IMG/VR virus record: IMGVR_UViG_3300031962_000018
Coordinates: 1-33,668 of that record
Source of the DNA: a virus
Strand: one strand, 5' to 3'
Length of the DNA: 33,668 nucleotides
The notes below the pieces were generated by a model that did not search any database, was not told the DNA's origin, and saw only the letters and a list, made by a program, of their open reading frames with translations. Below, in pieces: positions 1-22,563 of the stretch (position 1 is its first letter; each line of letters starts with the position of its first letter). The position numbers and the translations under genes were made by a program.

Positions 1-133
1 AAGTGCCATTCGCCAAGCATTATTTGCGCTTGATCGCATCGCTCCCGAACTGCCAGATCAAAACACGCGGCCCGACCGAAAGCGCTTGCTTCAAATTCGA
101 TGGCGGTATCGGATTCCTGATGCCGATACGTTC

Positions 134-406
134 ATGACCCGCGAGCCACGTCAGCCATACCCGTACCACCTGAAGCTGCGCGCGATCGGCATGGTGATCG
201 ACGAAGGATACGATCAGTCGTTCGTCTGCGTCGCGCTCGACATTCCGAAGGCGTGCCTGAGCCAGTGGGTGCAGGCGTTCAAGGCCGGCAAGCTCAATCG
301 CCCGAAGGGCACGCCGACGCGCGAGAGCGTGGCGGCTGCGCAGCTCACGGCGCTGGAGGGCGTCACGCGCGGGTGGTGCGGCGGCGCGGTGATATCGATG
401 GATTGA
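134..406 (+). CDS. HTH protein resembling IS3 OrfA (Transposase_8-like)
   Basis: A 90-residue protein from the ATG at 134; an in-frame TTG at 86 is a less likely start. Residues about 8-55 (YPYHLKLRAIGMVIDEGY, then ALDIPKACLSQWVQAFKAGK) follow the pattern of the helix-turn-helix head of IS3-type OrfA proteins: a charged first helix, 'DEGYDQSFVCVALDI', then a recognition helix ending in a Trp. No OrfB (DDE) follows and no terminal inverted repeats were seen, so it may be a domesticated DNA-binding regulator rather than a live insertion sequence. Its stop codon overlaps the -35 box of the promoter for the downstream RNA. HTH family is inference from motif reading; the regulatory role is speculation. 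Confidence 0.55.
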   Translation: MTREPRQPYPYHLKLRAIGMVIDEGYDQSFVCVALDIPKACLSQWVQAFKAGKLNRPKGTPTRESVAAAQLTALEGVTRGWCGGAVISMD

Positions 407-430
407 CGGAAAGCTGAAACTGTGGATAAT
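403..430 (+). promoter_or_regulatory. sigma70-type promoter for the structured RNA
   Basis: TTGACG at 403-408 (5 of 6 matches to the -35 consensus) and GATAAT at 425-430 (5 of 6 to the -10) are separated by 16 bases. The predicted start, about 437, falls at the first base of the hairpin that begins the RNA at 438. This is the best promoter I could see in the window. The -35 box overlaps the stop codon of the upstream HTH gene. Confidence 0.7.
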
Positions 431-436
431 CTTAGT

Positions 437-555
437 CGCCGATTGGAAGTCGGCAGATGTAGTGAAAGCCCAGACGCATTGGGTTGGGCCTCGCAAGAGG
501 CTGGCGTTACTGCATCCGCCACTTCCAACCAACCCAAGTCGCCTGGGCTTTTTGT
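437..555 (+). ncRNA. Structured small RNA, C4/P4-CI antisense-like candidate
   Basis: No convincing gene lies here, but pairing is extensive. A 5' hairpin has stem 438-442/450-454 and loop TTGGAAG (443-449). An outer stem, 465-487 with 529-551, has 20 pairs in 23 positions. It encloses GCCTC-GCAA-GAGGC (488-501, a GNRA tetraloop) and TGGCG/CGCCA (502-506/517-521). The unpaired CTTCCAA at 522-528 is the exact complement of the 5' loop, allowing a 7-pair pseudoknot or antisense contact. Five Ts (549-553) end the outer stem, so it could serve as an intrinsic terminator. A promoter at 403-430 and the GNRA loop point to the plus strand. Phage immunity RNAs such as P4 CI and P1/P7 C4 also act through short self-complementary segments near their own promoter; the family match is inferred from this logic, not demonstrated. 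Confidence 0.65.
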
Positions 556-798
556 CGTCTTGGACTTCGGCCGTAGCCTCGCGGAGGCGGGTAACGATAC
601 CGGCGCGAGGAGCGGTGCTGCCGTTACCGGAGGGGTCCCTAAGCGGCAAGGCGGGCGAACCGTAGAACCTGGGGATAGGCGCAAGCCGACGAGTCTGCGG
701 ATAAAGCCAAGCGACCGACCGACGGTGCATGGGCGAAGCGGACCTCCTTTCGAGGGGGATGATCGAGCTTTGCCTTCCTCCCTCCCCCTGGTGCATCC
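556..798 (+). other. Gene-free leader with further hairpins
   Basis: No reading frame here has convincing protein-like composition. Several hairpins are visible: GCCTC/GAGGC around 576-588; GGTAACG (590-596) pairing with CGTTACC (622-628) around an inner ACCG/CGGT; GGC-GCAA-GCC (678-687, another GNRA loop); and AGGGGGA (about 743-749) with TCCCCCT (about 784-790). If transcription reads through the upstream RNA, this would be a long structured leader of the recombination operon. The individual helices are seen; a joint fold is not established. Confidence 0.4.
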
Positions 799-1008
799 GT
801 GAAGTACCTACTTCATCCGGATCGTCCAGGAACAGCGGCCCATATTGTCGATGAAGGATTGAACGGCGCGATCGACACGTTCTGCAAGTTGTACTCGACC
901 GGCGGAATCAGCGCGAAGGCGAAACGAAAAATGTTCGTTGCCGATTCGCATGGAGAACATCGCGTGTGTCAGATGTGCCAGAACGTGTATGGAAAACTCA
1001 ATGGATGA
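799..1008 (+). CDS. Small phage protein with C-terminal Cys pair
   Basis: A 69-residue product. The start is a GTG at 799 with no clear ribosome binding site; the next in-frame ATG (931) would remove most of the protein. The sequence has a 'GAIDTFCKLYSTGG' segment and ends with CQMCQNVYGKLNG. Cys30 together with the closing CxxC pair could form a zinc site, an arrangement common in short phage proteins of recombination and early operons. It lies just upstream of the ERF gene in the same orientation. No specific function is recognised. Confidence 0.5.
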   Translation: MKYLLHPDRPGTAAHIVDEGLNGAIDTFCKLYSTGGISAKAKRKMFVADSHGEHRVCQMCQNVYGKLNG

Positions 1009-1043
1009 GCGACAGCAACAGGACACTTTGGAGCAGGAAGAAT

Positions 1044-1724
1044 ATGAGCGTCTACAAAGCGATCAATGCAGTGCAGGGCGAGCTGGCGAAGACCGGGATC
1101 AGCAAGGAGCGCACGAACGAGCAGCAGCGCTACAAGTTCCGCGGGATCGATGAAGTCTATAACGCGCTCTCGCCGCTGCTGGCGAAGCACGGCCTGTGCA
1201 TCCTGCCGCGCGTCATCTCGCGCGAGTGCGTCGAGCGCGAAAGCGCCGCCAACAAGGCGCTGTTCTACGTCACCGTGCACATGGAGTTCGACTTCGTTGC
1301 AAGCGTTGACGGGTCAAAGCACACCGTCGTGACCTTCGGCGAGGCGATGGACAGCGGCGACAAGGCGACGAACAAAGCGATGAGCGCCGCCTACAAGTAC
1401 GCCTGCATGCAGGCCTTCTCGATCCCGACCGAGGGCGACAACGATGCCGATCAAACCACGCACGAGGTGCGCATAGCCGCCGTGCCGAATGCGCTGCGCG
1501 GCGTGAACCTACCGGATGCGCAAATGGATGCGTTGCGCGAGCTGGCGGCCGACGTGGTGCAGATGGTCGAGAAGGACGGCAACCCGAACGGTGCGCAGAT
1601 GCACATCGATGCGCAGAACCTGGATTCGGATCAGAAGACCGCGCTGTGGGGACTGCTGGGCCCGAACAGCAAGACGCGCGATGCCCTGAAGAAGGCCGCA
1701 GCGCACGCGAGGGCAGCAGCATGA
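1044..1724 (+). CDS. erf: ERF-family single-strand annealing protein
   Basis: A 226-residue member of the ERF (essential recombination function) superfamily, which anneals complementary DNA strands during phage recombination and genome circularisation. Diagnostic segments are YKFRGIDEVYNALSPLLAKH near residue 30, followed by GEAMDSGDKATNKAMSAAYK and a 'PTEGDNDAD' tail typical of the ERF core. The C-terminal 80 residues are variable, as usual. The frame stays open to 966, but the ATG at 1044 is chosen because AGGAAG lies at good spacing before it and the conserved domain starts immediately. Its stop overlaps the ATG of ninB (ATGA), suggesting coupled expression of two recombination proteins. 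Confidence 0.9.
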   Translation: MSVYKAINAVQGELAKTGISKERTNEQQRYKFRGIDEVYNALSPLLAKHGLCILPRVISRECVERESAANKALFYVTVHMEFDFVASVDGSKHTVVTFGEAMDSGDKATNKAMSAAYKYACMQAFSIPTEGDNDADQTTHEVRIAAVPNALRGVNLPDAQMDALRELAADVVQMVEKDGNPNGAQMHIDAQNLDSDQKTALWGLLGPNSKTRDALKKAAAHARAAA

Positions 1725-2113
1725 GCGACTTCTCCGCCTCCTATATCGTCCGCGACGAGAAGATTCTCGCGCGCGTGCTCGCCATGATCCGCGGCAACTG
1801 GCAGGCGATGGCCGCCCGCAACGAGGCGATGGTCGTGCATCTGACCGCCGACAGCGCAACACGCTCGCAGGAGCAGAATCGCAGATATTGGGCGCTGCTG
1901 TCCGACATCGCCGCGAGCGCCTGGGTCGATGGCAAGCAGTTCGACAAGGACGTGTGGCACGAGGAATTCCGGCAGCGCTTCCTGCCGCGCATCGACGGCC
2001 CGAGCGGCAGCTATCCGGTATCGACCACGAGCCTGACTGTGAAGGCATTCGCGCACTATATGGGTCAGGTCGAAGCCTTCGCGGCAACCGAGCTCGCATT
2101 GGAGATTGCATGA
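1721..2113 (+). CDS. ninB: NinB-like recombination protein
   Basis: A 130-residue protein matching the lambda NinB/Orf family, which binds single-stranded DNA and helps the phage annealing protein act in RecF-type recombination. Recognisable parts are the NRRYWALLSDIA segment, the WHEEFRQRFLP segment, and a 'STTSLTVKAFAHYM' stretch near the C-terminus, all in the usual order. The ATG at 1721 overlaps the stop of erf (ATGA), which settles the start. The pairing of ERF with NinB parallels the red/nin modules of lambdoid phages. Confidence 0.88.
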   Translation: MSDFSASYIVRDEKILARVLAMIRGNWQAMAARNEAMVVHLTADSATRSQEQNRRYWALLSDIAASAWVDGKQFDKDVWHEEFRQRFLPRIDGPSGSYPVSTTSLTVKAFAHYMGQVEAFAATELALEIA

Positions 2114-2151
2114 AAGTCGAACGCCTGAAGATGGATCCGGAGAGGCGATGA
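2110..2151 (+). CDS. 13-codon mini-cistron between ninB and the next gene
   Basis: ATG at 2110 overlaps the ninB stop (ATGA) and encodes MKVERLKMDPERR before a TGA that overlaps the next gene's ATG at 2148 (ATGA again). The last codons carry GGAGAGG, the ribosome binding site of the downstream gene. It may be a coupling peptide or the head of a gene whose middle was deleted. Translation is inferred from the double overlap only. Confidence 0.35.
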   Translation: MKVERLKMDPERR

Positions 2152-2477
2152 CCGAATCCGCGCGGGACGAGGCGCTGAGACTGGCTGCCGATTCTGGCTT
2201 CAGCAAGCGGCTTCTTGAGTATTTTGAAAGCCCATCGGCAGCAGCCGCCTTATGCATTCTCGTTGAGAAAGCCCGCCAGCGGCCGGGGTGGGTGTGGGTG
2301 CCGAAGCAATGGACTACAGCTATGGCACATGCTGGCTATTTGGAAGCCGAGAAAGCGAAAGCGGAGGGCCGTTACATTGCCTGCGCGGAATGCGGTGAAA
2401 TTTACATTGCAATGATTGCGGCAGCGCAGGCAGAACAACTACTAACCGCCGCGCCGAAGCCGGGGGAGGGGACGTGA
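2148..2477 (+). CDS. Hypothetical phage protein with CxxC motif
   Basis: A 109-residue protein starting at ATG 2148 behind GGAGAGGCG; the longer frame from 2106 starts inside ninB and is not favoured. It is mostly helical and Ala-rich, with a WVWVPKQWTTAMAHAGY stretch mid-protein and a CAECGE motif near residue 82 that could hold one half of a metal site. I do not recognise a family. The gene is coupled on both sides: ATGA from the 13-codon cistron and GTGA into the following HTH gene. Confidence 0.6.
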   Translation: MTESARDEALRLAADSGFSKRLLEYFESPSAAAALCILVEKARQRPGWVWVPKQWTTAMAHAGYLEAEKAKAEGRYIACAECGEIYIAMIAAAQAEQLLTAAPKPGEGT

Positions 2478-2689
2478 CAATCAGGTTCACCGAAGAAGGA
2501 ATGCGGCGAAAGCTAAAGCGTCATATTGAACGCAAGGGCTTCACCGACGGCGATTACGCTGTATATCTTGGATTCACCCCAGCTTTTATCTCAATGGTCT
2601 TGAGTGGTCGCAAGCACCCGGGCAAGGAAATTCTGCGCGACCTAAAGCTCAAGAGAATAATTATGTATGAGAGGGTGAGACATGACTGA
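2474..2689 (+). CDS. Small XRE-like helix-turn-helix protein
   Basis: A 71-residue basic protein with a GTG start overlapping the previous stop (GTGA). Residues about 24-50 (YAVYLGFTPAFISMVLSGRK) fit an XRE/Cro-type HTH: a helix, a turn at Gly, and a recognition helix followed by the common 'SGRKHPGKEIL' extension. Small single-domain HTH proteins of this type often act as Cro-like regulators, but its position in a recombination/accessory operon rather than beside a divergent repressor gene leaves the role open. A+T content rises slightly here relative to erf and ninB. Confidence 0.65.
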   Translation: MTIRFTEEGMRRKLKRHIERKGFTDGDYAVYLGFTPAFISMVLSGRKHPGKEILRDLKLKRIIMYERVRHD

Positions 2690-3365
2690 TCTGCGCGAAC
2701 TGCTGCGGGAGGCGCTGAATATAAGCTCTTCATCATCTATTCCATGGTTCATTAGCGAAGCATGGAAAAAATGGCTTGAAGACGTACGTAGCGCCCTGGA
2801 GCAGGAGCAGGAATCTACGACCCTTCCTCCAATGCCGAATATCGGGCTAGGACCACAAAGCTCTTCCTTTATTAGAGATTGGTGCGACGAATGCGTGCGC
2901 CGCGCTCTCTCAACTATCGAATCAAAGCCAATGGGATGGACGAACTTTGAAACTATTGCAGCTCTAAAAGATGGGAAGACTGTTAAAGCATGGATATGGC
3001 CCAATCCTCAACAGGATGAGAATGGAATTACTTGCGAGTTAGCAGCCCTGCATACCGCCCCTCCCTCCGCCGCCGCTCTGATCGCGGATAAGGATGCGGA
3101 GATTGCGAGCCTGAAACACTGTTACCAGCTACTGGAGGAGGAGCGTCATAAGCAACACGAACGCGCCGAAGCAGCCGAGCGCGCGCTGGTGGAAGCCAAG
3201 GCGCAGGCGTTGATTGAAGCGGCAGAGATGTGCGACGGGGCTTCTTATCCGGCTTACAAAGGTCGCATAGGCGATGGCCACGGCGAAGCATGGCACACGG
3301 CTTGCGAATTGCAGACGAAGCGGCTTGCCGATGAACTTCGCCGTATGGCTTCCGAGCACGAGTAA
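2682..3365 (+). CDS. Ea22-like coiled-coil phage protein
   Basis: A 227-residue protein whose ATG overlaps the end of the HTH gene by eight bases. The N-terminal half is Ser-rich and more A+T-rich than its neighbours (a GWTNFETIAALKDGKTVKAW segment near residue 86). Residues about 133-178 form a coiled coil (DAEIASLKHCYQLLEEERH and following), ending in 'ALIEAAEMCDG' and a Cys/Leu-rich tail, a layout common in lambdoid Ea22-type early proteins. Such proteins are non-essential and mosaic; no biochemical role is known to me. The base-composition shift between halves suggests a recombined, mosaic gene. Confidence 0.6.
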   Translation: MTDLRELLREALNISSSSSIPWFISEAWKKWLEDVRSALEQEQESTTLPPMPNIGLGPQSSSFIRDWCDECVRRALSTIESKPMGWTNFETIAALKDGKTVKAWIWPNPQQDENGITCELAALHTAPPSAAALIADKDAEIASLKHCYQLLEEERHKQHERAEAAERALVEAKAQALIEAAEMCDGASYPAYKGRIGDGHGEAWHTACELQTKRLADELRRMASEHE

Positions 3366-3382
3366 TCCGCACCGGGCGGCAA

Positions 3383-3484
3383 ATGATCCTCCGGCGTTGG
3401 TTTTGGATCGCCCTGATCATGCTGCTGCTTCTCGCGCCGGCTGCAATCTCGATCGTTCTGGATGGTCGATGGCTCATCCGATAG
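3383..3484 (+). CDS. 33-residue single-pass membrane protein
   Basis: ATG at 3383 opens a short frame encoding MILRRWFWIALIMLLLLAPA and a 13-residue tail. Positive residues followed by about 18 hydrophobic ones give a single membrane helix. It overlaps the start of the next small membrane gene (3469) by 16 bases. Short single-pass proteins in phage early operons are sometimes lysis or exclusion factors, but nothing here identifies a function. Confidence 0.45.
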   Translation: MILRRWFWIALIMLLLLAPAAISIVLDGRWLIR

Positions 3485-3639
3485 AAGCGCCGCGTCGCTC
3501 ACCGCTGTGGTGGGCGCTCGCGCCGCTTGGCATCATCGCGCTTATCGTGCTGGCGCCGATTCTTGCCATGATCCGGCTGCTGCATCGGCTCGTCGCTTGG
3601 TCGTGCGAGTGGATCGTGGATTGGCTGCTCGGACAGTGA
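3469..3639 (+). CDS. 56-residue membrane protein
   Basis: From ATG 3469: a short basic, Pro-containing N-terminus, then a hydrophobic stretch WALAPLGIIALIVLAPILAM forming one membrane helix, then an amphipathic Trp-rich end (LVAWSCEWIVDWLLGQ). The open frame reaches up to 3274, but the upstream part shadows the preceding gene and has no protein character. It overlaps the previous mini-gene and is followed by an intrinsic terminator, so it closes a transcription unit. Function unknown. Confidence 0.5.
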   Translation: MAHPIEAPRRSPLWWALAPLGIIALIVLAPILAMIRLLHRLVAWSCEWIVDWLLGQ

Positions 3640-3648
3640 TATTCTCCT

Positions 3649-3692
3649 GAGAGCTCCGCTCTCTTCGGCCGCCTCTCGGGGCGGTCTTTTTT
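3649..3692 (+). terminator. Rho-independent terminator with preceding hairpin
   Basis: A stem CCGCC (3669-3673) / GGCGG (3680-3684) with a six-base loop is followed by TCTTTTTT (3685-3692). Just before it is a second perfect hairpin, GAGAG-CTCCG-CTCTC (3649-3663). Together they would end most plus-strand transcription after 3639, leaving the gene at 3706 dependent on readthrough. Confidence 0.75.
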
Positions 3693-3705
3693 CTAAGAGG
3701 CAATC

Positions 3706-3915
3706 ATGAACGGACAGGGACCTAATCCGTGGGGCAATCAGAATCAAACTCAGCAAGGCCTCGGCGGTTCTTTCGACGGAATCGATCAGGAATTCGTGCT
3801 GTGGAAGACGCGCGGGAATTCTCTGTCCGGCCAGATCTCCTGGACCGAACAACCTGGAGAACGTGCCGCGTTTAGAGCTGGTTACGAAACGGCCCTGCGG
3901 AGCACCAAGAAGTAA
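3706..3915 (+). CDS. Hypothetical 69-residue protein
   Basis: A polar protein rich in Gly, Asn and Gln at the N-terminus (MNGQGPNPWGNQNQTQQGLG), ending in a likely amphipathic helix (GERAAFRAGYETALRSTKK). AAGAGG precedes the ATG at good spacing. It sits behind the intrinsic terminator, and its TAA directly abuts the stop of the oppositely oriented Rz gene, with no spacer. I do not recognise a family. Confidence 0.5.
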   Translation: MNGQGPNPWGNQNQTQQGLGGSFDGIDQEFVLWKTRGNSLSGQISWTEQPGERAAFRAGYETALRSTKK

Positions 3916-21148: not shown

Positions 21149-21489
21149 GAGACGATCTGCGTCAGAGCCGAATTGTTCGAGGTCAGGTTCTCCGGACGCG
21201 ACACCTCGATGTAGTAGATCTCGTTGGCGGTGGGCGTGATGGTGGCGGCGGTCGCGTTGATGAACGCAATGGCGAGCGTGTTCGCCGCCGATACGCGTGT
21301 GTTGACGATCCCGAGGCCCGTTTGCGTGGTCGGCTTGCTGATGTCAACCATGTCGCCCAGCAAGAGCCCGTTGACGGTGAAGGTTTGCTCCACGGTCGTG
21401 TTCGGCGCCACGGAGGAAGGCGAGATCGTGATCGCCAGCACCCATTGGGCCTTGATGTTGCCGTAGGAGATCGTGCTCGGATTTGGCAT
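21145..21489 (-). CDS. Virion beta-domain protein, paralogue A
   Basis: A 114-residue protein with core DISKPTTQTGLGIVNTRVSA followed by 'ANTLAIAFINATAATITPT'. The same core recurs in the product of 22153-22563 (QKPTTQAGL, RVSAADTLAINF, TAATITPT), so the two are clear paralogues. The strand-rich, Thr/Ala-heavy pattern suits a capsid decoration or collar domain. The pair flank a glycosyltransferase gene. Confidence 0.7.
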   Translation of the reverse strand: MPNPSTISYGNIKAQWVLAITISPSSVAPNTTVEQTFTVNGLLLGDMVDISKPTTQTGLGIVNTRVSAANTLAIAFINATAATITPTANEIYYIEVSRPENLTSNNSALTQIVS

Positions 21490-22152: not shown

Positions 22153-22563
22153 TTACCAGTCGATCTGGTTGCCGGAGGCCGGAGCCGACCAGTTCGGCTG
22201 CACGCGCAGCACGGTCACCACATAGACCTGAGCGGAGGTCGGCGTGATGGTGGCTGCCGTCACATTGGCGAAGTTGATCGCCAGCGTATCGGCTGCGGAG
22301 ACGCGCGAGCCGCCGATCACCAGGCCAGCTTGCGTGGTGGGCTTCTGCACCAGCACCACGTCGGTGGTTAGCAGCCCGATGCCGGTGGTGGCGAAAGTCT
22401 GCTCGGCCGAGGTCGCGCCCGACACGGAGGCCGGCGACAGCGTGAGGTTGAAGATGCCCATTTTCCAGACATTGCCGACCGGCATCTGGACGGTATCGGG
22501 CAGGCTCGCACTTTGCGGACCCGGGTTGGAGCCGTCGACGTTGGTAACTGCGGGGAAGGCCAT
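22153..22563 (-). CDS. Virion beta-domain protein, paralogue B
   Basis: A 136-residue protein. The N-terminal segment (SNPGPQSASLPDTVQMPVGN) is specific to this copy, while the later LVQKPTTQAGLVIGGSRVSA, 'ADTLAINFANVTAATITPT' core matches paralogue A. This gene lies directly after the coat gene in transcription order, where head-decoration proteins are often coded. Function is inferred from position and the repeated beta domain. Confidence 0.7.
   Translation of the reverse strand: MAFPAVTNVDGSNPGPQSASLPDTVQMPVGNVWKMGIFNLTLSPASVSGATSAEQTFATTGIGLLTTDVVLVQKPTTQAGLVIGGSRVSAADTLAINFANVTAATITPTSAQVYVVTVLRVQPNWSAPASGNQIDW

Follow-up and report, generated by a model that had tools for sequence, protein, structure and literature searches.

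In classical attenuators and transcriptional riboswitches, an antiterminator fold and a terminator fold that exclude each other lie between the promoter and the first gene. The P4 CI and P1/P7 C4 RNAs of phages regulate via short antisense pairing within their own operon: CI arises by processing of a longer leader and has its partners in the separate seqA and seqC sites, while C4 lies upstream of the antirepressor (ant/icd) and covers its ribosome-binding site. The short pairing of P4 CI in the early-operon leader is described as linked to premature termination (PMC4825925). Also described there is IsrK of the Salmonella prophage Gifsy-1, a 217-nt RNA that has a promoter and a terminator of its own, occurs as a short terminated form and a long read-through mRNA, controls downstream phage genes through two alternative structures and switches orf45/anrP translation in trans (PMC4825925). 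In phage HK022, the ~70-nt put RNA binds polymerase through two adjacent stem-loops and brings about antitermination (PMC9378689).

Here we analyzed a viral record of 33,668 bases (the window, in its entirety) lacking end repeats and derived from an uncultured, short-tailed phage. P22-like head and packaging genes occupy its minus strand (terminase, portal, scaffold and major head protein); within the phage collection, the best match to the terminase is that of the Pseudanabaena phage Pam1, at 49%. The plus strand bears a unit comprising genes for an ERF single-strand annealing protein (1044-1724) and NinB (1721-2113), and ending in a terminator at 3667. The start of this operon lies ~490 bases downstream of an RNA of ~115 bases (Table 1), the interval holding a small ORF of doubtful status (799-1008). 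Based on the two mutually exclusive folds predicted for this RNA, which give it the layout of a transcription attenuator, we tentatively propose, at a little short of an even chance, that it is a bistable 5' leader of the ERF/NinB recombination operon transcribed from the promoter immediately in front of it. Such a leader would probably act as a self-contained on/off switch for the recombination genes.

Table 1. Predicted features of the leader region and the downstream operon
Feature	Position	Strand	Basis
Sigma-70-type promoter TTGACG-16-GATAAT (10/12)	403..430	+	Sequence; promoter scan
Leader RNA/short RNA; predicted start G438 or C437, predicted end in T549-553	437..555	+	z -4.83; top-ranked fold window
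5' hairpin H1 (GCCGATT GGA AGTCGGC), terminator state only	438..454	+	Fold prediction
Segment A: pairs with 507-528 before the terminator is made; holds H1 loop and single-stranded linker 455-464	443..465	+	Duplex energy, pair list
Segment B: 5' strand of terminator stem; in the other state local hairpin P2 (467-473/479-485)	465..487	+	Fold prediction
GCAA tetraloop (GNRA) hairpin, both states	488..501	+	Fold prediction
Hairpin H3 (TGGCG/CGCCA), loop complementary to linker 456-465, terminator state only	502..521	+	Fold prediction
Segment A': partner of A, includes CTTCCAA 522-528	507..528	+	Duplex energy, fold prediction
Segment B': 3' strand of terminator stem (529-551) and T-run 549-553	529..553	+	Sequence, fold prediction
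ERF ssDNA-annealing protein and NinB/Orf, probable controlled genes	1044..2113	+	PHROG/Pfam matches
Operon-end terminator, conserved in relative L003	3667..3692	+	Terminator scan and L003 comparison

A first-pass annotation had read this region as a promoter-driven phage regulatory or immunity RNA, and all of its individual elements are present where it placed them. These include the promoter, with TTGACG at 403-408 and GATAAT at 425-430 across a 16-nt spacer; the 5' hairpin; the loop TTGGAAG (443-449) with its exact complement CTTCCAA; the outer stem, in which 20 of 23 positions pair (87% complementary); and both inner hairpins, GCCTC-GCAA-GAGGC and TGGCG (502-506)/CGCCA (517-521). The full-length fold contains hairpins at 438-454 and 502-521 and the outer stem 465-487/529-551. 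The five Ts said to end the RNA are also present (T549-553), but T549-551 had been counted twice, as they already belong to the stem. The candidate terminator is thus a branched 23-nt stem with three of the five Ts inside it, and the free U-tract is short, being T552-553 followed by G; on account of this short tract and the branching of the stem, termination may be weak.

The coincidence of the transcription start with the first base of the hairpin had further been taken to make chance unlikely. While the start predicted from the promoter does fall at ~437-438, the promoter match alone is not unusual relative to shuffled sequence: the scan recovered 2 sites in 20 kb against a shuffle average of 4.9, and the match by itself consequently proves little. 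It is, however, the sole site with at least 9/12 matches on the plus strand of 1-3800, and hence the only one before ERF in that range, though a further promoter may lie upstream of the window, as the contig begins at window base 1. The stretch 422-802 lacks coding bias as judged by base composition by codon position. Directly before the leader RNA, at 137-406 on the plus strand, is a gene for a small protein with a transposase-type HTH (Pfam HTH_Tnp_1, phrog_17819), which has no relatives in the phage collection and whose stop codon shares bases with the -35 hexamer.

Both as a sequence and as a predicted structure, the feature is real. RNA 437-557 has a predicted folding energy of -57.3 kcal/mol, compared with -38.7 +/- 3.9 in dinucleotide shuffles (z -4.83), none of 200 shuffles doing as well. 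Of the 336 positions sampled, 437-556 shows the lowest fold z on either strand. Among the 672 sampled 120-nt windows, each compared with only 15 shuffles, it ranks first on the minus strand and second on the plus strand. The downstream stretch 556-830 folds in an ordinary manner (z -0.31), indicating that the structure is confined to the leader. The opposite strand of the leader folds equally well (z -5.49), as inverted repeats must, and the strand assignment thus rests on the promoter and the T-run, which lie on one strand with the structure between them. This strand symmetry (z -4.8 and -5.5), together with the location in a module missing from the two closest phages and directly after the transposase-like HTH gene, would be compatible with a DNA-level inverted-repeat element, for example a replication origin, recombination site or transposon end, flanked by a promoter and a T-run only by coincidence. 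We regard this as quite unlikely: the repeats are ordered A-B-A'-B' and do not form a simple palindrome, the promoter and T-run flank the structure precisely, and the plus-strand helices use G-U pairs (T443-G449, T460-G512 and G464-T508) which become A-C mismatches on the opposite strand, although a single A-C in B:B' (474/542) favors the minus strand.

The attenuating leader, which we prefer, depends on a second fold that goes beyond the initial description, in that TTGGAAG/CTTCCAA forms the end of a longer helix of ~20 pairs (443-465/507-528). This A:A' duplex has an energy of -28.0 kcal/mol, equaled by none of 5000 shuffles of its arms and by 16 of 20000 pairs drawn at random from the genome, which is G+C-rich. 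The prefix 437-530, which ends ahead of most of B', folds at -45.3 kcal/mol (z -4.58; 0 of 200 shuffles) into a three-way junction closed by A:A' and containing two hairpins, 467-485 and the GCAA hairpin. We also used structure-preserving controls, in which every pair of the terminator fold was kept while pair identities were permuted: none of 4000 reached the energy of the A:A' duplex, which is therefore not explained by the terminator fold, and 27 of 4000 reached that of the prefix. When the alternative fold could lie at any place in the RNA, 71 of 3000 such controls matched the best one. For the second fold at that particular position, chance is thus a very unlikely source; overall it is a moderately unlikely one, the signal being modest once free choice of the alternative fold is allowed for.

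The segments follow in the order A, B, GCAA hairpin, A', B', with no spacer at the A/B and A'/B' junctions, a geometry from which the full A:A' and full B:B' helices should be sterically incompatible. The best fold varies with the transcript end: the three-way junction prevails when the RNA ends at ~528-545, and the terminator stem with H1 and H3 once ~549 is exposed. In a partition-function series with 14 nt hidden in polymerase, which describes equilibrium thermodynamics and not kinetics, A:A' has a probability near 1.0 with polymerase at 542-557, and B:B' takes over at ~563. On this thermodynamic estimate read-through would be the default, and termination would follow when A is held back. 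We posit that A:A' is the antiterminator, nucleating by pairing of the linker 455-464 with the H3 loop and then displacing H1; polymerase would pass if A:A' has formed, whereas B:B' would stop transcription if A is held back. Candidates for holding A are a protein that stabilizes H1, a ribosome at GGAAG-7-AUG, or a second terminated RNA of ~115 nt acting in trans. As regards the ribosome, the Shine-Dalgarno-like GGAAG stands 7 nt before ATG-TAG-TGA (457-465), forming a start-stop mini-ORF within segment A (445-462), where a stationary ribosome could keep A:A' from forming. The terminated product may be a small RNA in its own right. One specific extension, which we consider unlikely, is that the terminated ~115-nt RNA presents A' (the H3 loop and 522-528), captures segment A of the following nascent leader by pairing in trans, blocks A:A' and raises termination; this would constitute a protein-free feedback counting phage transcripts or genomes, and could limit the recombination operon or provide immunity.

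With respect to kinship, the first-pass annotation had assigned this RNA to the kind represented by P4 CI and P1/P7 C4. Its view of a promoter-driven phage RNA with an intrinsic-terminator-like stem end is well supported by the sequence and folding, while the proposed kinship is not supported. The check that it suggested, cmscan against Rfam with the C4 model (RF01695) included, yielded no family match at the gathering threshold and no C4 match at any threshold tried, even at E<=5 on 350-820. The likeness to C4 lies in being a small phage RNA with loops able to pair with a nearby transcript; however, the ant/icd target is absent, the genes downstream being ERF and NinB, and no P4/P1-type neighbors were recognized, with no antirepressor, repressor or integrase among the proteins scanned. 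As for P4 CI, the complement of the exposed loop occurs on the whole plus strand of the phage only at 522-528. The sole partner thus lies in the same hairpin domain of the same short RNA, and not in a separate leader site or ribosome-binding region, and the promoter is directly in front of the RNA, whereas CI derives from a longer leader with separate partner sites. The loop's complementarity to a site in the same transcript, the early-operon position and the premature termination that P4 CI is described as forcing by short pairing (PMC4825925) are what an immunity or antisense RNA of this type would lead one to expect, with pairing at a second site in its own operon causing termination or a translation block. 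Weighed against the points above, we judge such an RNA very unlikely here. That the complement of the loop is part of a long alternative helix argues for a cis-acting two-state leader rather than a processed antisense RNA, though a P4 CI-like way of working, through conditional early termination, is plausible.

The nearest working analog that we found in the literature is IsrK, which by its description resembles the proposed leader in its promoter and terminator, its short and read-through forms and its two structures; it differs in its length (217 nt against ~115), its trans-acting translation switch and its downstream gene, an antirepressor in place of ERF/NinB. The put RNA is alike only as a structured RNA just 3' of an early phage promoter: it has no terminator of its own, whereas the leader RNA, with its three or four helices, finishes in a terminator stem. 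The put RNA was dropped as a candidate owing to this difference in architecture. With classical attenuators the leader RNA shares the arrangement of exclusive folds, with a promoter upstream on the same strand and an antiterminator fold beyond chance. It differs from them and from riboswitches in having no recognized aptamer (Rfam negative) and a potential leader peptide limited to the start-stop AUG-UAG; furthermore, the 5' strand of the terminator here lies within the junction closed by A:A', and is not the 3' strand of the antiterminator as in the classical systems.

The same promoter-RNA-terminator unit is compact enough to be a free-standing terminated sRNA of ~115 nt acting in trans on host mRNAs or proteins, with A:A' as a mere folding intermediate or dimer contact and ERF expressed from elsewhere. 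Phage and prophage sRNAs are common (PMC12197685), and the terminator fold leaves seed-like stretches single-stranded (443-449, 455-464, 507-516 and 522-528), for which the phage offers no other perfect complement, leaving host targets. This alternative, however, does not account for the beyond-chance complementarity of two long segments, and we consider it somewhat unlikely; it comes next after the attenuating bistable leader, which is the most likely reading.

Several other classes were considered and dropped: type III toxin-antitoxin pseudoknot repeats (no repeats and no recognized toxin gene), a group I/II intron (no Rfam match), a retron (no recognized reverse transcriptase) and attC-like core sites. 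A mir-1257 match in Rfam (E 3.8) lay far below the gathering threshold and was discarded. No DNA relatives of the leader RNA were recovered from phages or plasmids and none via the ORFs read across the leader region, while pattern scans of viral contigs and of bacterial and archaeal genome contigs returned only short isolated matches without the remaining RNA. A covariance model (R1) had no match in 56 ERF-bearing viral loci or 17 whole records, and its matches in 3 of 399 genomes were weak and at chance level, scoring 24-26 bits where its own sequence scores 155. Since R1 was built from a single sequence and has little reach, the absence of matches speaks for the lack of a close relative, not for uniqueness. 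In 55 relatives, scanning for a promoter plus T-run upstream of ERF gave nothing of similar stability among the matches listed. The leader RNA is accordingly an orphan with respect to the collections searched.

The two closest relatives are L002 and L003, whose ERF proteins are respectively 94% and 92% identical. Their alignment to the window starts only at ~1004, and the upstream module is wholly missing in both. L003 has another promoter region, its early operon beginning with a promoter followed by an unstructured leader. Together these observations suggest that the leader RNA is part of a replaceable module, and the unstructured leader of L003 indicates that the group does not carry the device as a rule. 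The onset of DNA similarity at ~1004, just at the small ORF 1001-1153 that overlaps the ERF start in a different frame, marks the module boundary. In L003, at about 3122-3179, back-to-back sigma-70-like promoters surround a near-palindromic tcaattgtcaattgaca stretch; they are likely to be that phage's divergent early promoter/operator. In L002 a short tandem repeat array (tcgcaggtc...) at the contig end (1-220) takes the place of the RNA module.

An orphan bistable leader RNA is thus our best reading of this locus, the overall kind of attenuator being already known. Should the switch prove real, it would represent an early-operon phage attenuator that needs no recognized antitermination protein, with a toehold-like layout, in which the linker meets the loop and strand displacement follows, and with possible feedback by the terminated product; it would also be an example of an ERF/NinB recombination module under RNA control. 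As an orphan from a metagenomic phage, its weight is that of a well-defined and cheaply testable prediction, not an established system. In the search for the host, ERF at E<=1e-20 was absent from 399 genomes of one order and present in 2 of 398 genomes of a phylum sample.

Two further observations concern other parts of the window. The ORF at 799-1008 would code for a 69-aa orphan protein with weak codon bias and a C-x2-C pair near its end, for which no relatives were found in viral contigs or phages. In the structural region, 21215-21336 and 22223-22344 are 122-nt direct copies, 71% alike and ~1 kb apart.
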